A model generated the notes under the pieces. It did no database searches, was not told the origin of the DNA, and worked only from the letters and a program-made list of their open reading frames with translations. A DNA stretch of 64,000 nt from Lutibacter sp. (lineage in GTDB: Bacteria; Bacteroidota; Bacteroidia; Flavobacteriales; Flavobacteriaceae). The stretch lies in contig NZ_JAEINV010000001.1 in assembly GCF_016342705.1 (NCBI RefSeq), positions 124,001-188,000 of the forward strand. Direction: 5' to 3'. Below are positions 46,122 through 61,917 of the stretch, piece by piece; within the stretch, counting starts at the first letter, position 1, and every line of letters starts with the position of its first letter. A program made the translations under genes and the position numbers.

Positions 46122-48500
46122 TTATATCTGATTTTTACTGAAAAATTGAAACTTAAATATGGATTTAATTTTTTTTCTAAAAACACTTCTCTTTTTAGGT
46201 AAATCTCCTAATATAGCCTCAGCTTCATTAATGTTTACTCCATTTACAATAAAGTTAATTTTTGAAGGAGACGTTGTCAACAAATTGCTCACAGCAGTTT
46301 GATCTGCTTCCGTCCAAACTCTATTAGCTCTGCAAATAAGAATATCTAAGTCTGAATGAGACATTAAAGCAGCTGGATAATTATGAAAAATTAAAGCAGG
46401 TAATTCAATTATCACAAAATCTGGTGTAAAATCAAGTTTTATATTGTTTTGCTCAATAATGTCAGTATAATTTTTTGCTTGGTAAAAATTTTCGTTAATT
46501 GAAAGTGTGAAAAATTCTGAAGAAGTTAAATAACTAGATACCTCAGCTAGAAAAGGATTGTTATAGTCTATCCTTGGATCTGGATATCCTAAAATTTTAT
46601 TTATGAAAGAAAATTTTGCTTGTTGTTTTAGCGGCTCTTGTTTTTCTGAAAAATTTAGAAATAACACTTTTTTACCTTCTTTCTTTAAATTTTTGGCGAT
46701 GTTACCAGCTAATACAGTTTTTCCTTCTTTTTTTTGAGTACTAAAAACTATAATGGTTTTTCCTTTTTTTTCTATTGAATTTGTGCTGAAAAATTGAATT
46801 ATATTTTGAGTAATTATTTCAAGTAATCGATTTTGAATAAAGGGTAATTGAATGCTGCCAGGATCTAATATCATTTTTGGCATCATCCCTAAAGAAGTTA
46901 AGCCTAAAATTTCACTAGCCTTTTTTGTGTTTTTTAGAGTGTCGTCAAAAAATTCCATCACCAATATTATTGCCAAAATTAAAATACCTCCTAAAAATGC
47001 TGCTGCAATTATAAGAATAGCTCTTTTAGTTGGATTTGGAGATAATGGGTAATATGGAGGGTCAATTGTTTTTAAGTTAGATGATAATTCGTTGTCTTGT
47101 AATTTTAACTTGGCCAGATTTAACCCGTGAAGAATCTCAAGATATCCTTGTTCTGAAACTGAAATTTCTCGTTCAATGCGTTTAATATTGGCTCCAGCAG
47201 GCGCAAAGGTGGCATATTGCTTTTCAAACCGTTTGTTTTGTTGATCCATAACTTCAATCTTTGCTTTAAGGTTTTCAGTCTCCACAACATTGTTCATCCA
47301 GTCTGGAAGTAATTTACTTAATGGTACGCCATCTACAGAGTTTTGATAACTGTAAATTTTATCAACACTAGTTTTAATTTCTTTTGTTAAGGCGTCTTTT
47401 TGATTTTTTAATTCGGCTAACTTTGAAATGACAAGTTCATTACTCTTAGAATCTACTCGGGCCTCATTAAATGCTATTTCATAATTAATCTCTCCAAGTA
47501 TTTTCTTTTTTTCAAGAACATTATTGTTTTCGCTTTGTATGTTTTCTTGAATGTTTAATTTTTCTTCTAGTCTTTTGGTAGCGGCTTTTGTTCCTGCTAG
47601 TTGCGCTTTTTTATTATTATAATCAACCTCCATGTCCTCTTTTACTACAGCAACTGCTTTACTTTGTTCGTAGTAGTTTATAATATTGGAAGACTTATTA
47701 AATTCCAACAAATTATCTTCAGCCATTTTTAAACTTTTGTTGGCGAGAGCTAATTGTTCTTCAAAATATTTTACCACATCATCTGATCTGTTTTCTTTAA
47801 TGTGTTTATAGTTTTTTATACAGACTTCATTGTAAATCTCTAATGTTTGCTGGCAAATTCCGGGATCGTTAACAGTGTAATTCATTTTTATTAAATCACT
47901 ACTATTAATTCGAGTTGCTTTTACCTCTGATAATGCTTTAAGTGAATAATGCTTATCATTATCATAATTTAACAGTTCATAAATATAGTTATCATTACTG
48001 CTTCTCATTAAAGTCAATAAATTTTGAACTGATTTTTCATAGTTATAACGATTTATTTCTGGAGGTATTGGATTATTAACAACTTGCTCATTGGTTTTGA
48101 GAGTTGAATTTTTATCTCCTTTTTCAATATAGGAATAGATTTCTTCAGGCACCTTTAACTTTAATTCGTCATATAATTTCTTTGAAATATACTTTGGATT
48201 AGCTTCAGGTAACATAAGATGAAGTGTTAATAACCTAACAGCAACTTCTTCTTGTGTTTCTCTTGAATTAATGATATTTATTAAATTATCAAAAGCAATA
48301 TTGGTGGCGAAATAATTGAATGTTTTGTCCATTTCAATGGAAGAACCCGTTGCAAGTCCTGTATATAAAACTGTTTGAGATGAATACTCAAAACTCGGAT
48401 TCATAGTTAATAGTAAAACCATAATGGCAAGCAAAAATGGCACTAGTATTAATAGAGCTAAATGTCTTAATATAAGTCTTATAAATTCAATTATTTTCAT
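46122..48500 (-). CDS. Wzc/GumC-type chain-length and export protein with degenerate BY-kinase domain
   Basis: This 792-residue inner-membrane protein has transmembrane segments at about 14-34 and 494-515 enclosing a periplasmic Wzz-type region with long coiled stretches (about 240-330, 350-390, 420-470) and the proline-rich PPYYPLSPNPTKRA just before TM2. The cytosolic part keeps a P-loop, STQKKEGKT (587-595). The aspartate of Walker A', normally in a LLIDxDxR-like context, is replaced by N616 in VLFLNFSE, and the Walker B aspartate is replaced by E699 in FVIIELPAL. The C-terminus (KSIFKFQFFSKNQI) has no tyrosine cluster. It therefore looks like a chain-length/assembly protein that may bind nucleotide but is probably not an autophosphorylating tyrosine kinase. 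It follows the TolC-like gene by 4 bp. Confidence 0.87.
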   Translation of the reverse strand: MKIIEFIRLILRHLALLILVPFLLAIMVLLLTMNPSFEYSSQTVLYTGLATGSSIEMDKTFNYFATNIAFDNLINIINSRETQEEVAVRLLTLHLMLPEANPKYISKKLYDELKLKVPEEIYSYIEKGDKNSTLKTNEQVVNNPIPPEINRYNYEKSVQNLLTLMRSSNDNYIYELLNYDNDKHYSLKALSEVKATRINSSDLIKMNYTVNDPGICQQTLEIYNEVCIKNYKHIKENRSDDVVKYFEEQLALANKSLKMAEDNLLEFNKSSNIINYYEQSKAVAVVKEDMEVDYNNKKAQLAGTKAATKRLEEKLNIQENIQSENNNVLEKKKILGEINYEIAFNEARVDSKSNELVISKLAELKNQKDALTKEIKTSVDKIYSYQNSVDGVPLSKLLPDWMNNVVETENLKAKIEVMDQQNKRFEKQYATFAPAGANIKRIEREISVSEQGYLEILHGLNLAKLKLQDNELSSNLKTIDPPYYPLSPNPTKRAILIIAAAFLGGILILAIILVMEFFDDTLKNTKKASEILGLTSLGMMPKMILDPGSIQLPFIQNRLLEIITQNIIQFFSTNSIEKKGKTIIVFSTQKKEGKTVLAGNIAKNLKKEGKKVLFLNFSEKQEPLKQQAKFSFINKILGYPDPRIDYNNPFLAEVSSYLTSSEFFTLSINENFYQAKNYTDIIEQNNIKLDFTPDFVIIELPALIFHNYPAALMSHSDLDILICRANRVWTEADQTAVSNLLTTSPSKINFIVNGVNINEAEAILGDLPKKRSVFRKKIKSIFKFQFFSKNQI

Positions 48501-48504
48501 GGGC

Positions 48505-49272
48505 TTAATTTAAATTTTCTGAATCAAATGAAAAACCTGCTAAATCTTCTAAAAGTTTTTTTGCTAATAGAAAGTCTGATTTTGTCACTTCATATTCAGA
48601 TTCTATTCTAGAAGTAATATCAGAAATTCTTACATATTCTGAAACAGTGGTTACGCCATTTGTAAATTCTTTTTCAACCATTTCCATATTCACTTTTGCA
48701 TTCCCTAAAGTTTGAGATTTTATACTTAACAATTTTTGTTTTAAAATGAGCTCTTGATATTGTTTTATTACTAATTGCCTTATTTGATCTTCTTGAGATT
48801 TTGCTAAAGCAATTGCCTCGTCAAGTTGTAATTCGGCTATTTTTGTTTGGTTTTTTCTGTTCAACATATCAAATATTGGAAACTTAACATAAAAACCTAC
48901 AGTATATGTAAATTGTTTAGTTGTTGTTGTTGCAAATGCAGAATTACTAACTCCATCATCACTTGTAGAATTGTTATTTAAGGTCCCGTATCTAGATTCG
49001 CCTTGAAAGCCAAAATTTCTCGTCCAATAAATGCGTTCTGAATTTAATGTTGCGTCTTTAACCTCAATCCCTTTATTGTTAAAACGTATCATAGCATTGT
49101 TTTTTAAAACAGAATCTATAACTGCTTCAAGAGGCGGTAAGTTCATTTCATTTTTACGCTTTGACGTATTTTCTAATGAAGATGATTGGGCCAAAGAATA
49201 ATTAACACAAAAAATATTTATGTATAATAGAACTATAAATTTTAATATTAGTTTCATTTTACGTGTGTTCAA
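48505..49272 (-). CDS. Half-size TolC-like outer-membrane protein (OEP family)
   Basis: This 255-residue protein starts with a signal peptide (about 1-28, NYSLAQ). The mature part carries one outer-membrane-efflux repeat: helices around LPPLEAVIDSVLKNNAMIR and ATLNSERIYWTRNF, a strand region with FTYTVGFYVKFPIFD, then long helices (AELQLDEAIALAKSQEDQIR, NAKVNMEMVEKEFTNG, ISDITSRIESEYE). Typical TolC proteins have two such repeats and about 430-480 residues, so this is half length, and the full set of barrel strands would need a larger oligomer. It lies 4 bp upstream of the Wzc-type gene, and no Wza-type export gene is present in the operon. It could be the outer-membrane exit for the polysaccharide. 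That role is inferred from position. Confidence 0.83.
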   Translation of the reverse strand: MNTRKMKLILKFIVLLYINIFCVNYSLAQSSSLENTSKRKNEMNLPPLEAVIDSVLKNNAMIRFNNKGIEVKDATLNSERIYWTRNFGFQGESRYGTLNNNSTSDDGVSNSAFATTTTKQFTYTVGFYVKFPIFDMLNRKNQTKIAELQLDEAIALAKSQEDQIRQLVIKQYQELILKQKLLSIKSQTLGNAKVNMEMVEKEFTNGVTTVSEYVRISDITSRIESEYEVTKSDFLLAKKLLEDLAGFSFDSENLN

Positions 49273-49287
49273 ATTATAAGTGCTTAA

Positions 49288-50490
49288 TTATACGGAATCT
49301 TTTTGTAGCAATGCAGGGATAGTTCGCAAAATAAGTTTAATATCATACCAAAAGGAATAATTATCTCCTTTAAAATGTTCTGCATATTCATTATCTAAAC
49401 GCATTCTCTCTTCTTCAGACATGTTTCCTCCTTTACCTCTTAATTCTACTTGCCATAAGCCAGTAATACCTGCGGGTGCTAAAAAGCGCTGAGAAACAGC
49501 ATCTGCAGTAAGTAATTCCGCCTCATATACTGGTAAAGGGCGGTTACCTACAATTGACATATCGCCTTTTAGTACGTTAATAAGTTGAGGTAATTCATCA
49601 ATACTTGTGTTTCTAATAAATTTACCTACTCTTGTAACGCGCGGATCATTCACAATTTTAACAAATGTGGAATTGTTTTTAGTTGCTTCAATTTTTTGAA
49701 AATTATACCAGTAATCACAAATTTGATGGGTGTCAATATACATTATTGGGGAGCAAGTTTCATTTTCAGGTAATTTACTGCATCTTGGGCAATCTAAGTT
49801 TATTAAACTTTCTGTAGGTTGTTGTGCTGTATTATATTGATTTTTTTCTTTTGCTAATTTTTTCAATAGTTCATCTGAACCAGTTCTCATAGAACGTAGT
49901 TTATAAAAATCGAAAGTTTTTCTACCTACTCTTTTTGAAATGTAATACACCTTTCCTTTTGATTCTAATTTAATAGCAAGTAATATTAATAGCAAGAATG
50001 GTGAGGCAACCAAAAGGACAGATGATGCCACAAAAATGTCAAAAATTCTTTTTGAAACGGGCATTTTGTACATTTCATCATTCAACTTAGGAATAGCAGA
50101 AACGTTTGTAGTTTTTTTGTTGGCACAAAGAAATTCAACTCGTTTTAGAATGTATTCAGGTGGCGTTACAGAGGTGGCATAAAAGTCATTCACTCTTTTT
50201 TTGAATGAAAGTTTATATAAATCTACATTAAATTCTGTTGTAATTAGAATAAAGGGTGTTTCTTTATATTCATCATGCTCTTTTATCCAATCATACAAAA
50301 ATAAACCATTATTACCTGGTAAATTATAATGGCAAATTATAGCATCTGGAGTTTTATTGGATTTAAGGTAATTAGTTGCCTTAATACTATCTTCCAAAGT
50401 AATAAGAGATATGTTTTTATTCTCATTTATTATTTGAAAATACTCCGGAGATTTGCCAATGTATAGTACGTTAAGAATTGGATTGGTCAT
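49288..50490 (-). CDS. Pseudo-receiver fused to initiating sugar-phosphate transferase (PF02397-type)
   Basis: The 400-residue protein has three parts. Residues about 5-120 fold like a response-regulator receiver (LNVLYIGKSPEYF, then DAIICHYNLPGNNGLFLYDW), but the phospho-acceptor aspartate is H54 and the N-terminal acidic pair is missing, so it cannot be phosphorylated in the usual way. After one hydrophobic segment (about 150-173) comes the polyprenyl-phosphate sugar-1-phosphate transferase domain: SKRVGRKTFDFYKLRSM, then VTRVGKFIRNTSIDELPQL, NVLKGDMSIVGNRPLP and GITGLWQVELRGKG. An insert between these halves carries four cysteines (C234, C237, C246, C258; CPRC and two more) that could bind a metal. 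The enzyme starts repeat-unit assembly by moving a sugar-1-phosphate to undecaprenyl phosphate. It sits directly after the CheY-like and Hpt genes, which suggests post-translational control of EPS initiation. Confidence 0.87.
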   Translation of the reverse strand: MTNPILNVLYIGKSPEYFQIINENKNISLITLEDSIKATNYLKSNKTPDAIICHYNLPGNNGLFLYDWIKEHDEYKETPFILITTEFNVDLYKLSFKKRVNDFYATSVTPPEYILKRVEFLCANKKTTNVSAIPKLNDEMYKMPVSKRIFDIFVASSVLLVASPFLLLILLAIKLESKGKVYYISKRVGRKTFDFYKLRSMRTGSDELLKKLAKEKNQYNTAQQPTESLINLDCPRCSKLPENETCSPIMYIDTHQICDYWYNFQKIEATKNNSTFVKIVNDPRVTRVGKFIRNTSIDELPQLINVLKGDMSIVGNRPLPVYEAELLTADAVSQRFLAPAGITGLWQVELRGKGGNMSEEERMRLDNEYAEHFKGDNYSFWYDIKLILRTIPALLQKDSV

Positions 50491-50534
50491 TTTAAATCAG
50501 GTAAAGTTAGTTTTAAGTGTCAAGTTTCAATAAG

Positions 50535-50921
50535 TTACCATTCTATAGAATAGTGAATTGGAAAAATATTTTTTTTAACCAATTCTTCAAGTTCCTCAGG
50601 ATTAAAAGGTTTTGTAAGATAATCTTGGGCTCCAAGTCTATAGCATTTTATTCGTTCCTTACTTTCAGATCTTCCAGATAACATTATAACAGGCGTGTGC
50701 TTAGTAAAGCCTCTTTGACGAACATTTGTTAAAAACTCATATCCATCCATTTCAGGCATTTGAATATCACTTATTATTAAATCCGGTAGGTTTTCTTCAA
50801 GCCATTCTACAGCTTTAAGACCGTCATTAAATGAAACAACATCATAGTCTTCTGAAAGAAAATTTTCTAATAAAAGACATATGCTTTTTTCGTCATCAAC
50901 AATTAGTATTTTTTTCTTCAT
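50535..50921 (-). CDS. Single-domain response regulator (CheY-like)
   Basis: This 128-residue protein consists only of a receiver domain. All phosphotransfer residues are present: the acidic pocket VDDE (D9, D10), phospho-acceptor D52 in LIISDIQMPEMDG, the switch serine in VIMLSGRSE, and the conserved lysine in DYLTKPFNPEEL. There is no output domain, so it acts by binding a partner or as a phosphate sink. It lies 44 bp upstream of the pseudo-receiver sugar transferase and 4 bp downstream of the Hpt gene. This makes the Hpt protein its probable phosphodonor and the sugar transferase a plausible target. The first is supported by family logic, the second is inference. Confidence 0.9.
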   Translation of the reverse strand: MKKKILIVDDEKSICLLLENFLSEDYDVVSFNDGLKAVEWLEENLPDLIISDIQMPEMDGYEFLTNVRQRGFTKHTPVIMLSGRSESKERIKCYRLGAQDYLTKPFNPEELEELVKKNIFPIHYSIEW

Positions 50922-50925
50922 AATT

Positions 50926-51309
50926 TTATGGGTTAGTTATATTAAAATCATTTTTCATTTTATCAACAACTTCTTTTGTAAGGTTACTAGCGCTTATTAA
51001 TTTTAACCTTAATTCTGATGTTACAATTTCATTTGTAAACAATGCTTCAATCTGTAATATTTCTTTTTCTAACGTTTCTGTTCCAAAATACTTTAGTGTA
51101 GGCTTTATTTTATGAACCAATTTTTTTATTTCTAAAAAATCATTTTCAGAATAGGCGCTATTAATTTCTTCAATAGATTGTGAAATTTCATTTGTAAAAA
51201 CCTCAACCATTTTTTTAACCTGTTCTTGGTTACCACGACACATTTTATCAATTAAATGGAGGTCATATAATTTTACGGGAACCTGTTTTGAGTTTTCGGG
51301 TAACTGCAT
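50926..51309 (-). CDS. Histidine phosphotransfer (Hpt) domain protein
   Basis: This small helical protein of 127 residues has the Hpt signature: LIDKMCRGNQEQVKKMVEVF in the first helices, and the phospho-histidine H66 in IKKLVHKIKPTLKYFG followed by the acidic helix ETLEKEILQIEAL. Hpt proteins carry phosphate between the receiver of a hybrid kinase and a final response regulator. It is encoded just before the CheY-like protein in the EPS operon. The only hybrid kinase in the window (57288-60794) has no Hpt domain of its own, so this protein could be its missing relay partner. It begins the post-IR segment of the operon, 42 bp after the inner arm of a 14-bp inverted repeat. Confidence 0.88.
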   Translation of the reverse strand: MQLPENSKQVPVKLYDLHLIDKMCRGNQEQVKKMVEVFTNEISQSIEEINSAYSENDFLEIKKLVHKIKPTLKYFGTETLEKEILQIEALFTNEIVTSELRLKLISASNLTKEVVDKMKNDFNITNP

Positions 51310-51353
51310 AATTTTTTTAAATATATTATTATATTATATACTTTTTTAAGTGT

Positions 51354-51443
51354 AATATAACCTTAGCAAAATAATAAAATTTATTACTACAGCTATTGAA
51401 TAGATTGAAGATTTACAACAATATTTTAAGCTAAGGTTATATT
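51354..51443. repeat. 14-bp perfect inverted repeat around a 62-bp spacer
   Basis: AATATAACCTTAGC at 51354-51367 and its exact reverse complement at 51430-51443 enclose 62 AT-rich bases between the end of uxs and the start of the Hpt gene. The arms contain the only G+C-containing block of this spacer. On the plus strand the right arm is followed by a T-rich run, on the minus strand neither arm is, so it is not a normal terminator for the operon. It could form a long-loop RNA structure in the leader of the Hpt gene, or be a pair of protein-binding sites. Confidence 0.8.
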
Positions 51444-51455
51444 TTATTTTTCAAA

Positions 51456-52394
51456 TTAAATGATTGACTTAAAAAAGTCAATTGTTTTTATTAAGCCTTC
51501 ATTCAATTCAATTTTAGGAGACCAATTAAGTTCTTTTTTTGCTAAAGAAATATCTGGTTGCCTCATCATTGGATCATCAGAAGGTAAAGGTTGGTATATT
51601 ATCTTTGATTTTGATCCAGTAAGTTCTATGACTTTTTGAGCCAATTCAAGAATAGTAAACTCATTTGGGTTTCCCATATTTACTGGGCCAATAAACTGAT
51701 CTGGTGAAGCCATCATTTTTATCATTCCTTCTACAAGGTCATCAACATATTGAAAACTTCGTGTTTGCTTTCCTTCTCCATAAATAGTAATATCTTGGTT
51801 TTGTAAAGCTTGAACAATAAAGTTAGAAACTACACGTCCATCATTAGGATCCATTCTTGGTCCGTAGGTGTTGAATATTCGAATAATTTTAATTTTAACA
51901 TTATTCTGTTTATGGTAATCAATAAACAATGTTTCAGCACAGCGTTTTCCTTCATCATAACAAGAGCGTTCACCAATTGGATTTACGTGACCCCAATATG
52001 TTTCTGGTTGAGGATGTACAAGTGGATCGCCATAAACTTCACTTGTTGAGGCTTGTAATATTTTTGCATTTATTCTTTTTGCAAGGCCTAACATGTTAAT
52101 TGCACCCATAACTGAAGTTTTAACAGTTTTAATAGGGTTGTGTTGGTAATGTATTGGTGAAGCTGGGCATGCTAAGTTGTAAATTTCATCGGCTTCAATA
52201 AAATAAGGAGCAGTAACATCATGTCTAATCAACTCAAAATATGGATTGTCTAACAAGTGCACAATATTTTGTTTTTGTCCAGTAAAAAAATTATCAAGAC
52301 AATAAACTTCGTTTCCTTCATTTAATAAGCGTTCGCATAAGTGAGAGCCAACAAAACCAGCACCTCCAGTGATAAGAATTTTTTTATGTGTCAT
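51456..52394 (-). CDS. uxs: UDP-glucuronate decarboxylase (UDP-xylose synthase)
   Basis: This 312-residue extended SDR enzyme converts UDP-glucuronate to UDP-xylose with bound NAD. Key features are the Rossmann motif GGAGFVG (10-16), the UXS-specific [14 protein letters not shown], the active-site TSEVYGDP with T117/E120-type residues, and Y146-x3-K150 in [11 protein letters not shown]. Further UXS blocks are [18 protein letters not shown] and [18 protein letters not shown]. Full length and all motifs fit UXS rather than UDP-glucose 4-epimerase. It follows ugd by 48 bp, so the pair supplies UDP-GlcA and UDP-Xyl for the EPS built by the rest of the operon. Confidence 0.93.
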
Positions 52395-52442
52395 AAGTTA
52401 TTTAATAAAAGTTGAATTAATTGTTTTTAAGATTACCCATCA

Positions 52443-53795
52443 TTAATTTATTGATGATGGAGTTGTGACATTCTTAGTTGTGTTAACCCCAATGCAGAAA
52501 TATTCGAATCCTTGTTCTTTCATTTCATCTTTATCATAAATATTTCTTCCATCAAAAATTGCAGGTTTATTTAATAATTTATGTACTATTTTTAAGTTAG
52601 GAATTTTAAATTCTGGCCATTCCGTAAGTATAGCTAGGCAATCAGCATCAATTAATGCTTCATACTGATCGTCGTAATAAGAAACGCTATCAGCAAAATG
52701 GTGTTTAGCTTCTTTCATAGCAACTGGATCGTACACTTTTACTATAGCGCCGGCTTCTAATAGTTTTTCAACAATTATTAAAGATGGAGCTTCGCGCATG
52801 TCATCTGTTTGAGGTTTAAATGAAAGACCCCATAGTGCAATTGTTTTACCTGCTAAATCACCTTTAAAATATTTATTAATTTTATTGAAAATCACCATTT
52901 TTTGATCTTTGTTAACTTCTTCAACAGCCTTTAGTACGCGAAGATTATAATTAAATTCACCACCGGTTCTTATAAGTGCTTGTACATCTTTTGGAAAACA
53001 AGATCCGCCATAACCTATTCCTGGGTAAATAAATTTATGTCCAATTCTAGAGTCAGAGCCAATACCTCTTCTCACTAAATTAATATCTGCTCCAACTATT
53101 TCGCATAAATTGGCTATATCATTTATAAAACTAATTTTGGTAGCAAGCATTGCGTTTGCGGCATATTTTGTCATTTCAGCAGAAACAATGTCCATAAAAA
53201 TTGTTGGATGACCATTTAATGTAAATGGTTTGTATAAACTTTTCATAAGATCTTCTGCTTTTGGGCTATCTAATCCAATTACAATTCTATCCGGCTTTAA
53301 AAAATCAGCAATAGCAGCTCCTTCTTTTAGAAACTCTGGGTTTGAAGCAACATCAAATTTAATATCTACTTTTCTTTTATTTAATTCATCTTGAATAGCG
53401 TATTTAACCTTTTCAGAAGTTCCAACTGGTACAGTACTTTTTGTAACTACTAATAAATAGTCGTTCATATTTTTACCGCAATCACGAGCAACTGATAGTA
53501 CATATTTTAAATCAGCACTTCCATCTTCATCAGGAGGTGTTCCAACGGATATAAATAGAACTTCACACTCTTTTACTGCCTCAGCAATATTTGTTGTAAA
53601 ACTCAAACGACCTTTTTTCATGTTTCGGCTTAACATATCCTCTAAACCAGGTTCGTATATTGGTATGATTCCATTATTTAGATTCTCAATTTTTTTACTA
53701 TCGATGTCAACACAAACAACATTAATACCTACTTCAGAAAAGCAAGCGCCAGTTACAAGTCCAACATATCCACTTCCAACAATTGCGATTTTCAT
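52443..53795 (-). CDS. ugd: UDP-glucose 6-dehydrogenase
   Basis: This 450-residue enzyme oxidises UDP-glucose twice to UDP-glucuronate with NAD. It has the N-terminal NAD fold ([19 protein letters not shown]), the segments [14 protein letters not shown] and [12 protein letters not shown], the central helix with [19 protein letters not shown], the catalytic cysteine C266 in [16 protein letters not shown], and the C-terminal UDP-binding domain from about 320 ([18 protein letters not shown]). It is the first gene of the long reverse-strand EPS operon and is divergent from the NtrC-type regulator gene across 322 bp. The start ATG 53793-53795 gives the normal N-terminus. Confidence 0.95.
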
Positions 53796-54117
53796 AATTT
53801 TTATTTTTTAAGATTATTTTTTATTCCAATAAATGTACAAATATTGTAGTGAAAAAACAACAATTTTAAAACACTGATAAACAGCACTTTAAATATTTTT
53901 ATTTTTTCATCAGCTCTGTGAAATGTCGTATTTTACAGAATATGGAATTTTAAAATGTAAAAAAACTAGCTAAATGTTTATATTTTCATACCGTTTATTG
54001 TTAAAATGAACAATTATTGCATTTTTGTCTATATTTGGGAAATATTTTATATATTGCATTAAAATATTTACTTAGTAATGATTTTAAAATCAATTAAGTC
54101 TCTTTTAAAGTTTTTTT
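53796..54117. promoter_or_regulatory. Divergent control region between EPS operon and NtrC-type regulator
   Basis: These 322 AT-rich bases must hold the promoters of ugd (leftward) and of the sigma-54-type regulator (rightward). For the regulator, TATATTTG at 54030-54037 matches the TAnnTTTG -7 box. For ugd, AATATTTG about 45 bp before the start is a poorer match, with a TTG about 20 bp upstream. I looked for a GG-N10-GC sigma-54 element facing ugd and did not find a convincing one. Confidence 0.5.
54030..54037 (+). promoter_or_regulatory. Candidate -7 box (TATATTTG) of the NtrC-type regulator
   Basis: TATATTTG fits the Bacteroidota TAnnTTTG consensus, about 80 bp before the ATG at 54118. 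The same octamer precedes kduI in this window. No TTG at a standard -33 spacing is seen. Confidence 0.4.
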
Positions 54118-55464
54118 ATGATTGAGTATAATATATTTATTGTTGAAGATGACCCATGGTTTGGAAAAGTATTACACCACCATCTTAGTTTAAATCCAGA
54201 TTATAAAGTTACGCTGTTTACCATGGGAAAGGAGTGTCTTTCCACAATGTGGACTCAACCAGATTTGATAGTAATGGATTTTTCTTTGCCCGATATTTCA
54301 GGGGATAAACTTTTTCAGAAAATTAAAGAGATAAATCCGGAGGTTCCTGTTGTTATAATTAGTGAGAAGAAAGACATTTCTATTATTGGCAACTTATTTA
54401 AAATGGGGGTGAAAGATTACCTTATAAAAGATGAGTCAATAAAAGAGTTGTTATGTAATAGTATTTTAAGAATTTGTGAAGCTCAAAAATTAAAGAAAAA
54501 AGTTGAGGTTTTACAGGAAGAATTAGGTGAAAAATATTCATTTAAGAAGTCTATCATTGGTCAAAGTGATGAAATGCGTAAGGTTTTTAAAATGATTGAA
54601 AAGGCCATTAAAACCAATATTAATATTTCTATTACAGGAGAAACTGGAACAGGAAAGGGGTTAATAGCCAAGGCTATTCACTATAACAGTGTTAGAATTA
54701 AAAACAATTATGTAGCTGTAAATATGGCCGCAATACCAGAAGGATTAATTGAAAGTGACCTTTTTGGACATGAAAAGGGAACTTTTACAGGAGCAATTTC
54801 ACAGAAAATTGGCAAGTTTGAAGAAGCGAATGGAGGAACTATTTTTTTAGATGAAATTTCAGGTTTAGATATAAATCTTCAATCTAAGTTGCTTCGTGTA
54901 TTGCAAGAAAGAGAATTAGTAAGACTTGGAGGTAATGAAACAATAAAATTAGATGTTCGACTTATTGTTGCAACTCAAAAAAACCTTTTAGAAGAAGTAG
55001 GAAAAGGCGCTTTTAGAGAAGATTTGTTTTTTAGAATAATGGGTTTACCTATAAAATTGCCCTCTTTACGAGAAAGAGTTAGTGATATTTTAATTCTTTC
55101 AAAACATTTTTTAGAAGAATTTATAAAAGAAAATAATATGGAGAATATCCGTTTTACAAAAGAGGCTAAAGAAAAATTATTGCAATATAGCTTTCCGGGA
55201 AATGTTAGAGAGTTAAAAGCTATCATTGAACTTGCCGCAGTTATTTGTGAAAATAATGAAATTGGAATAGATGATATTATGTATACCCATATTAAAAGTA
55301 ATGACGGTTTTATAACGGAGCATAAAACTTTGAGAGGACATACTTGTGATATTATTAAATATTATTTGAAAAAAAATAATGGCGATGTACTTGCAACAGC
55401 AAAATTTTTGGATATTGGGAAGAGTACAATTTATAAGATGAAAAAGGAAGGGGAGTTGTTTTAA
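54118..55464 (+). CDS. NtrC-family sigma-54-dependent response regulator
   Basis: This 448-residue regulator has three domains. The receiver (1-120) has D10/D11 in VEDDPWFG, phospho-acceptor D54 in LIVMDFSLPD and lysine in KDYLIKDES. The AAA+ domain (about 145-380) carries Walker A GETGTGKG (174-181), the sigma-54 contact loop GTFTGA (221-226, with Thr where most have Ala) and Walker B GGTIFLDE. The C-terminal Fis-type helix-turn-helix is NNGDVLATAKFLDIGKSTIYKM. It should activate sigma-54 promoters after phosphorylation. It is transcribed away from the EPS operon and 119 bp ahead of the FIST/H-NOX/kinase genes, so the hybrid kinase, through the Hpt protein, is its likely input and the divergent EPS operon a likely target. 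Confidence 0.93.
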   Translation: MIEYNIFIVEDDPWFGKVLHHHLSLNPDYKVTLFTMGKECLSTMWTQPDLIVMDFSLPDISGDKLFQKIKEINPEVPVVIISEKKDISIIGNLFKMGVKDYLIKDESIKELLCNSILRICEAQKLKKKVEVLQEELGEKYSFKKSIIGQSDEMRKVFKMIEKAIKTNINISITGETGTGKGLIAKAIHYNSVRIKNNYVAVNMAAIPEGLIESDLFGHEKGTFTGAISQKIGKFEEANGGTIFLDEISGLDINLQSKLLRVLQERELVRLGGNETIKLDVRLIVATQKNLLEEVGKGAFREDLFFRIMGLPIKLPSLRERVSDILILSKHFLEEFIKENNMENIRFTKEAKEKLLQYSFPGNVRELKAIIELAAVICENNEIGIDDIMYTHIKSNDGFITEHKTLRGHTCDIIKYYLKKNNGDVLATAKFLDIGKSTIYKMKKEGELF

Positions 55465-55583
55465 AAATATTATTTTTCAAAAAAAGAAAAATAGTCTATA
55501 TTTAGTACTAGTTAAAAAGAAGTGTTTTGTGCAAATATGGAGTTTCTTTAAATACAGGTAATTTCATAAAATAAATTATAAAA

Positions 55584-56723
55584 ATGAATACATCGCTTTA
55601 CCAATTTAAAGATAATACATGGTTTAAAAATCCTAAAAGCCAATCTATTGATGAGAATAAAGAAAATCTCATATTATGTTTTGGTTCAAAAGAAATACTT
55701 GAGGATGATACTATTTATATAAATATTAAATCTAAATTTCCAACATCGCAAATAGCCTTATGCAGCACTTCTGGTGAAATTTATCAAGAAAATGTGCTGA
55801 ATAACTCATTAATAGTTGTTGCATTGCAGTTTGAAAAATCAACAATAGAAGCAACTAGAGTTAATATTAAAGACTACAATAATAGTTATAGTGCAGCTAT
55901 TGGCTTATTCAAAAAATTACCAAAGGAAAATTTAGCTTATGTAATGGTGTTTTCAGACGGTAGTTTGGTTAATGGAAGTGAACTTGTAAAAGGATTATCT
56001 ACTCAGATAGATAAAAATATATTGGTAACAGGAGGGCTTGCAGGTGATGGCTCTAACTTTCAGTCTACACTTTTAGGATTGAATGAGCAACCAAAAGAAG
56101 GTGAAATTATTGCTATTGGGTTCTATGGTAAAAACTTAACGGTTACACATGGATCACAAGGAGGTTGGGATATTTTTGGCTTAGAAAAAAGAATTACCAA
56201 TTCTTCTGGAAATGTATTGTTTGAATTAGAAGGTCAAAATGCTTTAGATCTTTATAAAAAATATTTAGGACCTGAATCAAAAAATTTACCTGGATCTGCT
56301 CTTTTATATCCATTATCAGTCATAATTCCAGGAGCTACAAAACCAATTGTACGCACCATTCTTTCTATAAATGAAGAGGATAAAAGTATGACTTTTGCAG
56401 GAGATGTTCCTGTTGGTTCAGAGGTAAGATTTATGAAGGCTAATTTTAAAAGAATTACGCAAGCTGCCTCAGAAGCGGCAAATCAAACCACAGTAGGGCA
56501 TAAGAATCATCCAGATTTTTCATTATTGATAAGTTGCGTCGGAAGAAAGCTTATTTTAGGTTCTCAGACAGATGAAGAAGTTAAAGCAGTCAGCGAAACA
56601 TTTAATAATGAAACACTTTTAGCTGGGTTTTATTCTTATGGGGAAATTTCTCCGTTTAATGAAGGTGGGAATTGTCAACTACATAATCAAACAATGACTA
56701 TTACTTCATTTTATGAAGATTAA
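55584..56723 (+). CDS. FIST-domain sensory protein (NosP-like)
   Basis: This 379-residue soluble protein consists of FIST_N (about 25-220) and FIST_C (about 225-365) domains. Typical stretches are AYVMVFSDGSLVNGSELVKG, ILVTGGLAGDGSNF, VTHGSQGGWDIFG (a candidate ligand histidine), NVLFELEGQNALDLYKKYLG, and FSLLISCVGRK with LLAGFYSYGEISPF at the end. FIST domains bind small ligands, and the NosP subgroup is a haem-based nitric-oxide sensor that regulates a histidine kinase encoded next to it. Here it is the first gene of a three-gene set: H-NOX follows after 18 bp and the kinase 3 bp later. The family call is firm; haem binding is inferred from the subgroup-like motif and context. Confidence 0.87.
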   Translation: MNTSLYQFKDNTWFKNPKSQSIDENKENLILCFGSKEILEDDTIYINIKSKFPTSQIALCSTSGEIYQENVLNNSLIVVALQFEKSTIEATRVNIKDYNNSYSAAIGLFKKLPKENLAYVMVFSDGSLVNGSELVKGLSTQIDKNILVTGGLAGDGSNFQSTLLGLNEQPKEGEIIAIGFYGKNLTVTHGSQGGWDIFGLEKRITNSSGNVLFELEGQNALDLYKKYLGPESKNLPGSALLYPLSVIIPGATKPIVRTILSINEEDKSMTFAGDVPVGSEVRFMKANFKRITQAASEAANQTTVGHKNHPDFSLLISCVGRKLILGSQTDEEVKAVSETFNNETLLAGFYSYGEISPFNEGGNCQLHNQTMTITSFYED

Positions 56724-56741
56724 TTTATAAATTAAAAGCTT

Positions 56742-57284
56742 ATGTATGGAATTGTTAATAAAGCTATCCAAGATTTAATTATTGATAATTTTGGAGAAGA
56801 TAAATGGGAAGCAGTTAAAGAGAAAAGCGGAGTTGATATTGATTTTTTTCTAAGTAATGAGCCCTATGATGATGATATAACTTATAAACTTGCCGGAGCT
56901 GCTGCTGAAGTACTAGGTATTTCAGTTGGTGAGGTATTAAATGCTTTTGGTGAATGGTGGGTATTAAAAACAGGGAAAGAAAAATATGGAGGGTTAATGG
57001 AAGCCGGTGGAAATAATTTGAAAGAATTTTTAGTAAACCTGCCGTTATTTCATAATAGAATTATGTTAATGTATCCAAAATTAACACCTCCAGAATTTAA
57101 AGTGAGTAATTTAGAAGAAAATTCAATTCATATACATTATCATTCCAAACGTTTAGGGTTACAGGAATTTGTGAGAGGATTGCTTTCGGGTTTGTCTAAA
57201 ATGTATAGTGTTGACTCCAAGATAGAATTATTGGAAAGCCGTGATGATGGAAAATCACACGAAATATTTAAAGTAAGTTGGTAA
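56742..57284 (+). CDS. H-NOX haem nitric-oxide/oxygen-binding protein
   Basis: This 180-residue stand-alone haem-based gas sensor has the proximal haem ligand H104 in LPLFHNRIMLMYPKLTPP, with the conserved proline after it, and the haem-propionate motif YxSxR at Y133-S135-R137 (YHSKR). The N-terminus MYGIVNKAIQDLI and GEVLNAFGEWWV are typical. Members from facultative aerobes bind NO and not O2 when the distal tyrosine is absent. I see no obvious distal tyrosine at the usual place, but alignment is needed. H-NOX proteins normally inhibit or tune a kinase or cyclase encoded next door. The HNOBA-type kinase begins 3 bp after this stop, so the two are co-translated and should interact. Confidence 0.94.
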   Translation: MYGIVNKAIQDLIIDNFGEDKWEAVKEKSGVDIDFFLSNEPYDDDITYKLAGAAAEVLGISVGEVLNAFGEWWVLKTGKEKYGGLMEAGGNNLKEFLVNLPLFHNRIMLMYPKLTPPEFKVSNLEENSIHIHYHSKRLGLQEFVRGLLSGLSKMYSVDSKIELLESRDDGKSHEIFKVSW

Positions 57285-57287
57285 ACT

Positions 57288-60200
57288 ATGGCAAATCATT
57301 TTTCTTTTAGTGAAGCCCAATTTAATGGACTATTCCCTTTTTATATATTAATAAATAGAGATTTGAATGTTGTTTCTATTGGTAAATCTTTAGGTAAATT
57401 ATGCGATTTACAAAAGGGTAAGAATTTTAATGAATTCTTTTCAATTCCAAGGCCATTAACAATCATAAATTCATTGGATGATTTGATTGTTTTACAAAAT
57501 CAAATGGTACTGATAGAATTAAATTCACCTAAAAAATTGATGTTACGAGGTCAGTTTGAATTTATGGAGGGAACAAAAGAAATTCTTTTTTTAGGTTCTC
57601 CTTGGTTTGGTTCTATGGAACAATTGAGAGAAAATAACCTTCAGATTAATGACTTTGCAAAGAATGATCCGCTTATTGATTTACTTCATGTACTAAAAAC
57701 AGTTGAAATTACAAATGATGACTTAAAAGAATTAATTGCCACTGTTAATAAGCAAAAAAACGATTTAAAAAAAGCAAATAAAGAGGTTTATGATATTGCT
57801 TTATTTCCTAAACAAAATCCAGATCCAAATATTAGGATAAATTATGAAGGAGATTTAATGCAAAATAATCCCGCAGCTTCTAATCTTGACTTTATTGAAT
57901 ATGAGGGAAGCACCTACAGGAATGATATGTTTTTTAAATTGATTTCATCTAAAATTGATAAAACCTTAAAAAGATGGAATTTTGAAGCTAGATCAAATGA
58001 AATTGATTACTCTTTTGATTGTGTTGCAATGCCAGAAGAAGGCTATATAAATATATATGGTAGAGATATAACTGAACAAAAAATAAATCAACAGGAATTA
58101 GAAAAATTATCACTTATTGTTCAAGAAACAACAAGCTCAGTAGTTATTACTGATTCTTTTGGGAAAATAGAATGGGTTAATAAAGCTTTTGAAAAAATAA
58201 CAGGGTACAATTTATTAGATGCAAAAGGTAATTCTCCTGGAAAATTATTACAAGGAGAAAAAACAGATAAAAAAAGGGCTGATTATATGAGGCAAAAGGT
58301 TAAGAATCTTGAACCTTTTACGTGTGAAGTATATAATTATAAAAAATCGGGGGAAGGTTATTGGGGAAGAATTAATGCGCAACCAATTTTTGATAAAAAG
58401 GGAGAAGTAATAAATTTTTTCGCTTTAAAGGAGGATATTACTGGAGAAAAACTTGCAAAAGAAAAATTAAGAAAAGCAGCAAGTCGCATGTCCTCATTAA
58501 TTACCAATCTTCAAGATGCAATTTTGTTGGAAAATGAGAATCAAACAATAGAATTAGTTAATGAACGTTTTTGTAATTTGTTTAAAATCCCTGTTAGCCC
58601 TAACCAATTAATAGGTGCAGATTGTTCTAAAGCCGCTGAGCAATCCAAACATCTTTTTGCAAACCCAGAGTTATTTGTTTCAGGTATTAATGAAATCTTA
58701 AAAAATAAAAAACTTGTTATTGGCAATCAATTAGAACTTGCTAATGGAAGAATATTGGAACGAAATTTTATTCCAATTTGGAATGGAGGTAAATATGACG
58801 GTCATTTATGGGTGTATTCTGATATAACTGAAAAAATAACAGCAAACAAAAAATTAGAAGAACTTCGTGTTTTTTATGAAAAAATTCTTGATAATATTCC
58901 GTCAGATATTGCTGTATTTGATAAGGACCATCATTATTTATATGTAAATCCAAAAGGTATTAGGGATGTAGAATTGAGAAAATGGATTATTGGCAAAACA
59001 GATGAAGATTATATTAAAAAAAGAAATAAACATGTTTCAATTATTGAAGAAAGGAAAAATGCATTTAGAGAAGTTTTAGAAAGTAAACAGCTGAAAAGCT
59101 GGGAAGAAGAAATGAATGGAGTAGATGGCACGAGCACTTATATAATGCGAAATATGTACCCGGTAGTTAATAGTGATAATGAAGTAGATTTAGTAATTGG
59201 TTATGGTGTTGATATTACTTCTATTAAATTATATCAACAGCAATTAGAGGAAAGTAAAATAAAGTATAAGGAAATAGTAGATAACAGTTTGGCAATGATA
59301 TCAACCCATGATATACATGGTTTTTTCCTAACAATGAATCCAATTGTAGAAAAATTATTAGGTTACCATCCAGATGATGTGATTGGACATCATTTAACGG
59401 AATTCATGCATATTGATGATAGAGAAAAATTTGAGGATCTTTATTTAAATCTTATTTTATCAAATAAAGAATTTACAGGTACATTTAGGGTTATAAATAA
59501 AGAAGGAAAAATTGTTTATTGTTTATTAAACAATTACCTTAAAGAAATGCCTAATAAAGAGCCTTACGTTATTGCTTTTGCTATAGATATTACAAAACGT
59601 ATTGAAGCTGAAAGAGAGCTAAAGAAAGCCAAAGAAATTACAGAAAGATTAGCACTTTCTAAACAAAACTTTTTAGCAAATATGAGTCATGAAATTAGAA
59701 CTCCTATGAATGCTATTATGGGAATGAGTCGCCAATTATTAAAATCAAATATAAATACTGAACAAAAAAATTATCTTGATATTATAACAAATTCTTCTGA
59801 AAACCTTTTGGTAATAATTAATGATGTTCTAGATCTTGCAAAACTAGAAGCAGGAAAATTATCCATTGAAAACATCCCATTTTCTCCTAAACTTGTGATG
59901 GAAAATGTATTGAAATCTATGATGCATAAAGCAGAAGAAAAAGGGCTTACACTTTCAAATACTTTTTGCGATTCAGATTTAGCTCCAATACTTATGGGTG
60001 ACCCATTTCGTTTGAATCAAATACTGTTAAATCTTATTTCAAATGCTTTAAAATTTACAACAATTGGAGGAGTGGATGTTTCTTGTAGAGTTTTGAAAGA
60101 TGAGGAAATTTTTCAAGAGATTGAAATTATAATAACTGATACAGGAATAGGAATGGATGGAGCTTATTTAAAGAATTTATTTCAAAAATTTAGTCAAGAA

Positions 60201-60794
60201 TATGCATCTACAGCAAGAAAATTTGGTGGAACTGGATTAGGAATGAGTATTACCAAAACCTTAATAGACAATATGGGAGGAGAGATTTGGGTAAAAAGTA
60301 CAAAGGGTAAAGGAACTGCCATTGGTTTTAAATTAACTATGAATAAAGGGGTACTTGAAGAAGAACTAAAAATTAGTAATAAAGATGAAATCTTAAAAAT
60401 TATTAAAGGAAAGAAAATACTTGTTGTTGATGATAATGTTATGAACAGAATGGTGGCTACACTTATTTTAAAAGAATATGAGGCTGTTATTTCCGAAGTA
60501 GAAAATGGTAAAGAAGCCATAAATCATTTAATAAATAATGATTGCGATTTGGTGTTGTTAGATTTGCAAATGCCTATATTAAATGGTTATAGTACCTCAA
60601 AAATAATTAGAAAAAAATTAAAAATGAATCTTCCCATTGTTGCATTAACTGCAAATGTAATTAAAGGGGAACGAGAAAAGTGCCTTAAATTAGGAATGGA
60701 TGATTATTTGTCGAAACCATTTGAGGAAGATGAATTTGTTGACAAGGTTGCCTTTTGGATTGAGAAGTCTAAAAATATTAATTCTGCTAGTTAA
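57288..60794 (+). CDS. HNOBA-PAS hybrid histidine kinase (NO-responsive)
   Basis: The 1168-residue protein begins with an HNOBA domain (about 8-170): FPFYILINRDLNVVSIG, RGQFEFMEGTKEILFLGSPW, NDFAKNDPLIDLLHVLKT and a coiled end (KQKNDLKKANKEV). HNOBA is the haem-NO-binding-associated domain that couples H-NOX to enzymes. Five PAS-like domains follow (about 175-265, 270-395, 398-520, 523-650, 652-780), then HisKA with phospho-acceptor H801 in FLANMSHEIRTPMNAIMG and HATPase (DTGIGM at 951-956, GGTGLG at 980-985). A receiver ends the protein, with D1049/D1050-type acids in ILVVDDN, phospho-acceptor D1092 in LLDLQMPILNG and lysine in DYLSKPFEED. It has no transmembrane segment or Hpt domain. It should sense NO through H-NOX and relay phosphate to a separate Hpt protein. 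Confidence 0.93.
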   Translation: MANHFSFSEAQFNGLFPFYILINRDLNVVSIGKSLGKLCDLQKGKNFNEFFSIPRPLTIINSLDDLIVLQNQMVLIELNSPKKLMLRGQFEFMEGTKEILFLGSPWFGSMEQLRENNLQINDFAKNDPLIDLLHVLKTVEITNDDLKELIATVNKQKNDLKKANKEVYDIALFPKQNPDPNIRINYEGDLMQNNPAASNLDFIEYEGSTYRNDMFFKLISSKIDKTLKRWNFEARSNEIDYSFDCVAMPEEGYINIYGRDITEQKINQQELEKLSLIVQETTSSVVITDSFGKIEWVNKAFEKITGYNLLDAKGNSPGKLLQGEKTDKKRADYMRQKVKNLEPFTCEVYNYKKSGEGYWGRINAQPIFDKKGEVINFFALKEDITGEKLAKEKLRKAASRMSSLITNLQDAILLENENQTIELVNERFCNLFKIPVSPNQLIGADCSKAAEQSKHLFANPELFVSGINEILKNKKLVIGNQLELANGRILERNFIPIWNGGKYDGHLWVYSDITEKITANKKLEELRVFYEKILDNIPSDIAVFDKDHHYLYVNPKGIRDVELRKWIIGKTDEDYIKKRNKHVSIIEERKNAFREVLESKQLKSWEEEMNGVDGTSTYIMRNMYPVVNSDNEVDLVIGYGVDITSIKLYQQQLEESKIKYKEIVDNSLAMISTHDIHGFFLTMNPIVEKLLGYHPDDVIGHHLTEFMHIDDREKFEDLYLNLILSNKEFTGTFRVINKEGKIVYCLLNNYLKEMPNKEPYVIAFAIDITKRIEAERELKKAKEITERLALSKQNFLANMSHEIRTPMNAIMGMSRQLLKSNINTEQKNYLDIITNSSENLLVIINDVLDLAKLEAGKLSIENIPFSPKLVMENVLKSMMHKAEEKGLTLSNTFCDSDLAPILMGDPFRLNQILLNLISNALKFTTIGGVDVSCRVLKDEEIFQEIEIIITDTGIGMDGAYLKNLFQKFSQEYASTARKFGGTGLGMSITKTLIDNMGGEIWVKSTKGKGTAIGFKLTMNKGVLEEELKISNKDEILKIIKGKKILVVDDNVMNRMVATLILKEYEAVISEVENGKEAINHLINNDCDLVLLDLQMPILNGYSTSKIIRKKLKMNLPIVALTANVIKGEREKCLKLGMDDYLSKPFEEDEFVDKVAFWIEKSKNINSAS

Positions 60795-60881
60795 AATGCT
60801 ATGTCAATTCCATTATTTGATTTTATGGAACTTTATAAAATTACAAAACAAAATTAGTAATTTTTCAATATAATTATTTAA

Positions 60882-60983
60882 TTGGTTTTTGTTGAAATAA
60901 CTAAATGTGTTGCTGAAAGAATAAAATCTATTATTGAAAATTTGGACACTGATATCTTTTTTGATGTAATTTCAGGTTTTTAA
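60882..60983 (+). pseudogene. Possible receiver-domain fragment (34 codons)
   Basis: In the 265 bp between the kinase and kduI, one frame starting at TTG 60882 and ending at TAA 60983 reads like the first strand and helix of a response-regulator receiver: FVEITKCVAERIKSIIENL resembles the usual I(V/I)EDSK-VAERIKSIIE opening. The acidic pair is lost (E-I-T for E-D-S) and nothing follows. It could be the remains of a regulator gene that once followed the kinase. With only about 30 residues, chance similarity is possible. Confidence 0.25.
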
Positions 60984-61059: not shown

Positions 61060-61902
61060 ATGATGTCAACAAATTACGAATCACGATACGCCTCAAGTCC
61101 GAACGCAGTTAAACAATATGATACAGCGCAATTAAGGGAAGAATTTTTAATAGATAATTTAATGCAGGAGGGTAAAATTAACCTTACCTACTCACATTAC
61201 GACCGTTATATTGCAGGATCAGCGGTTCCATTAAAGCCGTTGACTTTAGAAACAATCGATCCATTAAAGGCTGAATATTTTTTAGAAAGAAGAGAAATTG
61301 GGATTATCAACGTAGGAGGAAACGGAACTGTAGAAGTTGACGGAACGGTTTATGATTTAGGTTTAAAAGATGCGTTATATATTGGTAGTGGAAATAAAGA
61401 AGTGATCTTTAAAAGTAATGATGTTAAAGATCCAGCGAAGTATTATTTAAATGCTGCTCCCGCACATAAAAGTTATCCAACAAAAAAAGTAAGTAAAGCT
61501 GAGGCTAATAAATTAGAATTAGGCTCGCTAGAAACAGCTAATCATAGAACAGTAAACCAATTAATTATTGGAGGTATTGTAACCACGTGCCAATTACAAA
61601 TGGGAATGACAGAATTAAGAACCGGAAGTGTTTGGAATACCATGCCGGCCCACGTCCACGATCGCAGAATGGAAGTTTATTTTTACTTAGATATTCCAGA
61701 AAATCAAGCGGTTTGTCATTTTATGGGACAACCACAAGAAACACGTCATATTTGGATGAATAATCATCAAGCAGTCATTTCACCACCTTGGTCAATTCAC
61801 TGTGGTTCGGGAACATCAAACTACACCTTTATTTGGGGAATGGCTGGTGAAAACTTGGATTATGGAGATATGGATGTAGCGAAAATAACAGACTTAAGAT
61901 AA
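61060..61902 (+). CDS. kduI: 5-keto-4-deoxyuronate isomerase
   Basis: This 280-residue cupin-type zinc enzyme converts 5-keto-4-deoxyuronate (4-deoxy-L-threo-5-hexosulose uronate), made from unsaturated uronates after polysaccharide lyase action, to 3-deoxy-D-glycero-2,5-hexodiulosonate. The metal ligands are visible: H198, H200 and E205 in MPAHVHDRRMEVY and H247 in SPPWSIHCGSG, matching the known ligands of the E. coli enzyme with a two-residue offset. The length is standard. Either of two adjacent ATG codons (61060 or 61063) could start it; the difference is one methionine. It is first in a kduI-kduD-uxaC operon behind a LacI-type operator and works in pectin or other uronate catabolism. 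Confidence 0.96.
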   Translation: MMSTNYESRYASSPNAVKQYDTAQLREEFLIDNLMQEGKINLTYSHYDRYIAGSAVPLKPLTLETIDPLKAEYFLERREIGIINVGGNGTVEVDGTVYDLGLKDALYIGSGNKEVIFKSNDVKDPAKYYLNAAPAHKSYPTKKVSKAEANKLELGSLETANHRTVNQLIIGGIVTTCQLQMGMTELRTGSVWNTMPAHVHDRRMEVYFYLDIPENQAVCHFMGQPQETRHIWMNNHQAVISPPWSIHCGSGTSNYTFIWGMAGENLDYGDMDVAKITDLR

Positions 61903-61917
61903 AAAGCAATATATATA

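Follow-up and report, generated by a model that had tools for sequence, protein, structure and literature searches.

Layout of the locus

The window analysed here, 64,000 nucleotides of a Lutibacter species (family Flavobacteriaceae; RefSeq contig NZ_JAEINV010000001.1), spans bases 124001-188000 of contig 3 in a genome of 3.63 Mb. It carries two divergent gene rows that may together encode a phosphorelay acting on exopolysaccharide (EPS) synthesis in response to nitric oxide (NO). Leftward from UGD (53795), the EPS operon continues with UXS (presumably the right name for its product), genes for a stand-alone histidine phosphotransfer protein (Hpt, here Hpt-E), a CheY-like regulator and a sugar transferase, then OEP, Wzc, and a gene whose product we take to be flippase-like. 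Rightward run the genes of the candidate NO module, encoding an NtrC-type regulator, a FIST protein, H-NOX and a 1168-aa hybrid kinase (Table 1). The original prediction, made from this DNA alone, had proposed a relay split between these operons, leading from NO through the kinase to the Hpt, and from there to NtrC (transcription) and CheY (enzyme control). The open reading frames (ORFs) lie where it had placed them, with the receiver (REC)-transferase, CheY and Hpt on the minus strand and NtrC and the hybrid kinase on the plus strand.

The kinase had been described as ending in a receiver (D1092) and lacking an Hpt. Pfam agrees, matching HNOBA-PAS-HisKA-HATPase-REC and no Hpt domain; the predicted phospho-accepting His of HisKA is H801. 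The NtrC-type regulator with D54 (position counted by hand) is likewise present and combines a receiver with a sigma-54 AAA+ domain; rpoN is found in the genome. The FIST and H-NOX genes, which sit between these two, had no part in the stated reasoning of that prediction. The FIST protein does not pass as NosP, scoring 59.2 bits on NCBIfam NF041558 against an equivalog cut-off of 450. Elsewhere in the genome (L279:2866-5936), a second FIST-like gene adjoins a further hybrid kinase that also has a receiver at its end. The closest solved structure to H-NOX is Nostoc Alr2278 (176 bits), to whose conserved His H104 aligns; Y133-S135-R137 is also present (positions counted by hand), and we take this His and the YxSxR motif to denote heme ligation.

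Table 1. Features of the divergent locus, in window coordinates
Feature	Coordinates	Strand	Basis
Wzc-type EPS chain-length protein (named by resemblance)	46122..48500	-	NCBIfam EPS chain-length matches below cut-offs; same place in relatives
OEP outer-membrane efflux-type protein, EPS operon	48505..49272	-	Pfam PF02321
Phosphoglycosyl transferase with pseudo-receiver (H54) at the N-terminus and a small, PglC-like catalytic part	49288..50490	-	Pfam Bac_transf, alignment, AlphaFold, Foldseek
CheY-like single-domain response regulator, D9/D10/D52/K104	50535..50921	-	Pfam, alignment
Stand-alone Hpt (Hpt-E), H66	50926..51309	-	Pfam, tree, AlphaFold, Foldseek
Hairpin-forming inverted repeat between UXS and Hpt-E	51354..51443	-	Sequence, fold
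NDP-sugar epimerase/dehydratase-family protein (labelled UXS)	51456..52394	-	Pfam
UDP-glucose/GDP-mannose dehydrogenase family (labelled UGD)	52443..53795	-	Pfam
Divergent promoter region, conserved block 54027-54059	53796..54117	.	Site scan, comparison
NtrC-type sigma-54 activator, receiver D54, GTFTGA loop	54118..55464	+	Pfam, orthologs
FIST-domain protein, NosP-like	55584..56723	+	Pfam
H-NOX	56742..57284	+	Pfam, match to Nostoc Alr2278
Hybrid kinase HNOBA-PAS(n)-HisKA(H801)-HATPase-REC(D1092)	57288..60794	+	Pfam
Decayed kinase-side Hpt (Hpt-K remnant)	60801..60947	+	Match to intact G650 gene

Hpt-E and a decayed kinase-side Hpt

Hpt-E has the marks of a genuine Hpt: it exceeds the PF01627 cut-off (28.0 against 24.6 bits), carries its His within HxxK, and is modelled by AlphaFold as a helical bundle whose best Foldseek matches are Hpt proteins (E only 1.2e-3, TM 0.72). 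A genome search with Pfam, followed by an 11-row profile at E values up to 10, returned the same two Hpt domains, Hpt-E and one within a 770-aa histidine kinase (HK)-REC-Hpt frame, and a search for plasmid copies gave no match. The claim that the EPS operon holds the sole stand-alone Hpt (H66) thus extends to the whole genome at the sensitivity used.

The divergent locus occurs in at least three of the 38 genomes of the genus, and neighbourhoods were read in seven besides that of the window (G636, G650, G670, G637, G643, G638, G654). Two of these congeners carry two Hpts. In G636 (L331), the divergent locus has no UGD or UXS between, an Hpt in the EPS operon, and a 1291-aa kinase with a fused C-terminal Hpt; G650 (L332) has UGD, UXS and an EPS-operon Hpt, and its 1170-aa kinase is immediately followed by a 113-aa Hpt. 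The five other members have an NO-type operon of a LytTR kind, with H-NOX seen in four of them; their 20-kb neighbourhoods contained no transferase.

A remnant of such a kinase-side gene (Hpt-K) is found in the window. Starting 6 bases after the kinase stop, it shares 22 of 49 residues with the kinase-side Hpt of G650, is interrupted by three in-frame stops and lacks the part with the phospho-His. Its score of 81 was reached by none of 1000 dinucleotide shuffles (maximum 48) and is surpassed, window-wide, only by pieces of the intact Hpt-E. Because congeners hold a kinase-side Hpt and a decayed copy follows the window kinase, the split relay is best regarded as derived; two Hpts likely came first, and the kinase-side one was then lost in the window lineage. 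The split described by the original prediction is accordingly accurate for the present arrangement but not for the original design. Judged by sequence, these observations suggest that the kinase lost its own Hpt and that only the Hpt of the EPS operon remains to it. The first helix of a receiver is the usual Hpt-docking face, and its core in the kinase receiver (MNRMVATLIL) is identical in the window species, G636 and G650.

In the Hpt tree, whose deep forks are open and whose bootstrap had not settled, the Hpts of EPS operons, four in all, group in a single clade (96/89), separate from the kinase-side pair of G636 and G650 (99/88). Two other candidate orthologs of Hpt-E were rejected. The first, a Flavobacteriaceae Hpt of about 112 aa, is only 28-33% identical in its better matches, and four Hpts of this type fall in another clade of the same unsettled tree; 28 of the 30 Hpt loci examined lie outside the Hpt-E type, most with one constant neighbourhood in which one neighbour belongs to the FAA-hydrolase family (one locus scanned). 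The second, a 105-aa Hpt from the LytTR-type NO operons, is 14-21% identical and also belongs to another clade.

A single-domain regulator beside the transferase

The CheY-like protein with D52 is present in the EPS operon as predicted (Pfam 113.6 bits), and its D9, D10, D52 and K104 are invariant in 13 of 13 aligned sequences. The pseudo-receiver assigned to the adjacent sugar transferase can also be recognised. Foldseek matches the catalytic half to PglC and the N-terminal part to receivers, residues 1-125 adopt a receiver fold in the AlphaFold model (with an overall predicted TM score of only 0.44), and the domain scores 28.6 bits in Pfam, narrowly short of the 30.2 required. Its acceptor position is occupied by H54, and the acidic pair and lysine are absent as well. 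The transferases of G636 and G650 have Asp at the acceptor position, yet they too lack the acidic pair and lysine. Asp is found there in five of 49 aligned N-terminal extensions (45 from named loci, only 22 of these receiver-like by profile), and acceptor, first acidic residue and lysine occur together in none of the 49. A four-cysteine insert (C234, C237, C246, C258; residues 234-258), possibly a metal site, occurs within the transferase domain in 10 of 13 aligned rows, including that of the window.

A survey of the transferase comprised 80 loci, of which four without a transferase ORF (L199, L200, L208, L210) were dropped, leaving 51 from Bacteroidota and 25 others, the latter being also the weakest transferase matches and not a matched control. 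Among the 51 named Bacteroidota loci, 45 have a single-domain regulator immediately upstream of the transferase, against 0 of the 25 others; of the 44 Bacteroidota cases where the transferase has a 120-190-aa N-terminal extension, 42 do. This extension is receiver-like by profile in 23 of all 76 loci. Kinases of the HK-REC-Hpt type adjoin the CheY-transferase pair in Hymenobacter (L152) and Mucilaginibacter (L153). At another locus (L147:7253-9734), an IS66 transposase ORF separates the CheY-like ORF from the REC-transferase. Since CheY and transferase are commonly adjacent in Bacteroidota and a comparable pair, EpsW-EpsZ, has been reported, control of the transferase enzyme by CheY appears to be the better-supported output here, ahead of NtrC transcription of the EPS genes.

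Recurrence of NO modules beside EPS operons

The family was searched with transferase residues 1-273 at E 1e-30 in 249 genomes, and linkage was scored on up to 10 first-look candidates per genome, which makes the counts lower bounds. The REC-transferase was matched in at least 12 genomes and H-NOX in 93. H-NOX occurs in 11 of the 12 transferase genomes and in 82 of the 237 others (Fisher p = 1.1e-4, uncorrected for kinship). The two genes lie within 10 kb of each other, 5.7-8.9 kb apart, in eight of the 12 (G000, G140, G051, G034, G246, G109, G229, G102); in the remainder they are on different contigs (G153, G117), far apart (G205), or without an H-NOX match (G082). With eight of 12 linked, gene order indicates that the NO module stands beside the EPS operon more than chance would place it there.

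The other seven linked genomes represent seven further genera and have an NO operon of a different make. It consists of REC, H-NOX, kinase, an Hpt-like protein and REC-LytTR; five of the seven also have FIST and a second kinase before the Hpt-like protein. The Hpt-like motif belongs to a 105- to 125-aa protein between kinase and REC-LytTR (e.g. L094:4741-5058), and the one scanned reaches 17.8 bits in Pfam, below cut-off; in the Hpt alignment, none of the 12 rows departs from the conserved His, Lys and Gly. The window H-NOX matches those of the seven relatives at 13-31 bits or not at all. All seven EPS operons retain CheY, transferase, OEP, Wzc and flippase, and UGD and UXS are adjacent in four. 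As both operon make and H-NOX type differ, two unlike NO modules stand beside related EPS operons. The LytTR-type arrangement appears again in Allomuricauda/Muricauda (L148, L151), possibly not independently of G229 and G102.

Orthologs of the window NtrC provide a second line of comparison. They were found in at least 96 of 395 class genomes (E 1e-130) and at least three of 249 family genomes (E 1e-125), scoring four and six first-look candidates per genome, respectively. Of these loci, 22 were read: the top 19 of 95 other class genomes, G112, and also G082 and L142, which were already known to hold the genes and whose Hpts were in the search panel. An Hpt is present in 19 of the 22, fused to the kinase C-terminus in 13, as HNOBA-REC-Hpt in one and as a stand-alone gene in five (at L271, 7.4 kb away); one of the three loci without an Hpt is cut by a contig end. 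H-NOX and FIST each lie beside NtrC in four loci (one FIST weak). At L142, from a metagenome-assembled genome of Bacteroidales, an HNOBA-REC-Hpt kinase is divergent from a CheY-REC-transferase operon, and the NtrC is 53% identical to that of the window. At L263, in a genome from another family of the class (G523), one strand carries in succession NtrC, an H-NOX of the window type (267 bits), HNOBA-kinase-REC-Hpt, CheY, transferase, OEP and Wzc. This locus unites in one row the parts that are split over two operons in the window.

Comparative genomics thus supports a functional link between the NO module and the EPS operon. The proposed tie from kinase through Hpt to CheY and NtrC is upheld in this comparative sense, by the recurring NO module and EPS operon, the kinase-linked Hpts and the sole free Hpt; its EPS transcription arm is not.

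A proposed route and its alternatives

On balance, we think it probable from the sequence evidence that an NO-input phosphorelay feeds the EPS operon via Hpt-E to CheY and, probably, to NtrC. H-NOX, probably with the FIST protein, would set the activity of the hybrid kinase, in keeping with the families of these proteins, and phosphate would move from H801 to D1092, as is usual for this type of kinase. From D1092 it would go to H66 of Hpt-E, as decay has left the kinase of this genome without an Hpt of its own. Hpt-E would then phosphorylate D52 of CheY, and phospho-CheY would dock on the transferase pseudo-receiver and alter its activity, a step for which EpsW-EpsZ offers a precedent. Hpt-E probably serves D54 of NtrC too, the targets of which need not include the EPS promoter. 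This exact path, from kinase receiver through Hpt-E to CheY and NtrC, is a likely one in this genome. For the congeners with both Hpts, the simplest reading would be two branches, one leading through the kinase-side Hpt to NtrC, the other through Hpt-E to CheY.

Several observations, given here and in the paragraphs on the alternatives, weigh against this proposal. From the congeners that carry both Hpts it follows that Hpt-E is not a partner the kinase must normally use. The tree pairs the window Hpt-E with that of G082 and not with those of the congeners (96/84, bootstrap not settled), a pairing that conflicts with the identities (46% to G082, 59 and 52% to the congeners) and also with simple descent. 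No Hpt lies between UXS and CheY in any of the seven other linked loci. Among the 51 Bacteroidota transferase loci, Hpt genes or domains are found in 12 (0 of the 25 others), NtrC-like genes in only six and H-NOX in only two; because H-NOX is so seldom near the CheY-transferase pair, the NO input is considered lineage-specific.

The idea that NtrC drives EPS transcription finds no support in the promoter region. The 322-bp divergent region contains no sigma-54-like site, its best score being 2.7 where the tenth-best site of the window scores 12.6 (with a matrix approximated from a consensus), and NtrC control of EPS transcription is for this reason unsupported. A sigma-54-type site at 55380 (score 13.3) lies within the NtrC coding region and is probably due to chance. 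Before ntrC, the window species, G650 and G636 share a conserved 33-bp block, which lacks sigma-54 spacing and is perhaps an ntrC promoter or operator.

A broken NO branch would offer another explanation, in which kinase and NtrC became disconnected after the loss of Hpt-K, and Hpt-E and CheY answer something else. The decayed gene behind the kinase fits this, as does the NtrC loop, which reads GTFTGA in the window and GAFTGA in G636, G650, G082 and L142. The decay may be recent, and the NtrC branch could be dying too recently for omega (the ratio of nonsynonymous to synonymous substitution rates) to register. Such a break nevertheless seems unlikely: NtrC, FIST, H-NOX and kinase are all open, with omega of 0.06-0.20 against the congeners (a rough estimate, with synonymous sites near saturation), and most of the NtrC loci read hold only one Hpt. 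For NtrC, omega is 0.12-0.14 against the congeners and 0.10 within the congener pair; relaxed selection on NtrC is unsupported, as omega is barely raised and the window, being the outgroup, leaves the branch rates inseparable.

Hpt-E has also to be considered as a hub for several other hybrid kinases, with the NO kinase as one input or none, and the adjacency as shared inheritance. At least 12 other hybrid kinases without a detected Hpt, a minimum read from 17 chosen stretches, are possible donors to Hpt-E, the sole free Hpt found. In addition, G082 holds Hpt-E, CheY and the REC-transferase with no H-NOX match in a genome 89% complete, which suggests that Hpt-E may be able to do without an NO input. 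Speaking against a hub, G047 of the same genus has no detected stand-alone Hpt and still keeps similar kinases: 10 of the 12 match it at 48-65% identity, over five ORFs and with six kinases falling on one of them (30 of its 37 receiver loci compared; these are similarity matches, orthology not implied). Its best match to the window kinase, at 40%, falls in a locus whose 774-aa frame has an Hpt-like domain. In addition, Hpt-E is located in the EPS operon in all four genomes where it was seen. We regard a hub as improbable, and prefer the route from the NO kinase through Hpt-E.

A broader form of this route is put forward tentatively, as an appreciable possibility that remains in some doubt. Bacteroidota would widely gate the first EPS step by phospho-CheY on the transferase pseudo-receiver, NO kinases would have been coupled to it more than once, and here Hpt-E would serve CheY and NtrC after the decay of Hpt-K. 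If true, some Bacteroidota would be able to pass an NO signal directly to EPS synthesis at its first enzyme, and not through transcription alone; the EpsW-EpsZ principle of 2025 would reach a second phylum; and the window would hold a natural case of a phosphorelay having lost one of two Hpts.

Other features of the window

The inverted repeat between UXS and Hpt-E folds into a strong hairpin at -22.8 kcal/mol, and an unrelated hairpin at the same place in G650 at -21.5 (no shuffle control). Two genes directly 3' of the locus (61060-62706) presumably resemble KduI and KduD. A minus-strand ORF of 7375 aa occupies 9383-31510.

Comparison with known systems

The H-NOX circuits described in Vibrio are those of Proteobacteria. 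Among the titles listed on H-NOX with Bacteroidetes phosphorelays or Flavobacteria, on HNOB with hybrid kinase and Hpt, and on Bacteroidetes response regulators, undecaprenyl-phosphate, EPS and phosphorelays, none describes this system.

In Vibrio fischeri, NO/HnoX-controlled HahK acts via SypF and LuxU on SypG (transcription) and SypE (post-transcriptional) and in this way governs the syp polysaccharide, according to the available text (PMC12369376; a further source on HnoX-HahK is PMC8738867). The predicted parts of the window resemble this system in an NO-controlled kinase, an Hpt in another protein, regulators of transcription and of post-transcriptional steps, and an EPS output. The window H-NOX, with its putative heme-ligand His and YxSxR, adjoins the kinase; the kinase ends in a receiver and the Hpt is encoded elsewhere; and the NtrC-type regulator has a receiver in a genome with rpoN. 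A sigma-54 promoter before the EPS genes, as in the V. fischeri type, was not found in the divergent region. The window differs in phylum, in the CheY and pseudo-receiver transferase that stand in place of SypE/SypA, in a stand-alone Hpt gene within the EPS operon, in the HNOBA of the kinase and in the FIST gene of its operon.

Another relay is found in Vibrio harveyi, where H-NOX/HqsK feeds LuxU and LuxO (PMC3759921). As there, the H-NOX-linked kinase of the window would supply a stand-alone phosphorelay protein and a regulator of the LuxO type; the NtrC of the window scores 311 bits on the NCBIfam sigma-54 LuxO model, below the cut-off of 800. The Vibrio harveyi relay differs in its quorum-sensing output and in a relay protein shared with quorum-sensing kinases, and the available text reports no enzyme-control branch.

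The closest parallel to the proposed output comes from Myxococcus xanthus, in which phosphorylated EpsW activates the initiating transferase EpsZ after translation (Schwabe et al., 2025, PMC12802240). In both cases a single-domain regulator is paired with the sugar transferase that initiates EPS synthesis in a Wzx/Wzy pathway, and in the window a phosphorylatable single-domain regulator adjoins the transferase. EpsZ, however, is a large monotopic phosphoglycosyl transferase (monoPGT) lacking the beta-hairpin, whereas the window enzyme has a small PglC-like part with a fused pseudo-receiver, and the input is the Dif chemosensory kinase in Myxococcus as opposed to the proposed phosphorelay. The available text of that report mentions receiver fusions in small monoPGTs and contains no word beginning 'Bacteroid'.

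Within Flavobacteriaceae, the REC-H-NOX-HK-FIST-HK-Hpt-REC.LytTR operons likewise place NO-type sensors and an Hpt beside a related EPS operon. They differ in having another H-NOX type, no recognised HNOBA hybrid kinase, and a LytTR output instead of NtrC. The topology of the proposed relay is thus known in kind; what is new are its parts, the putative transferase switch and the loss of an Hpt.

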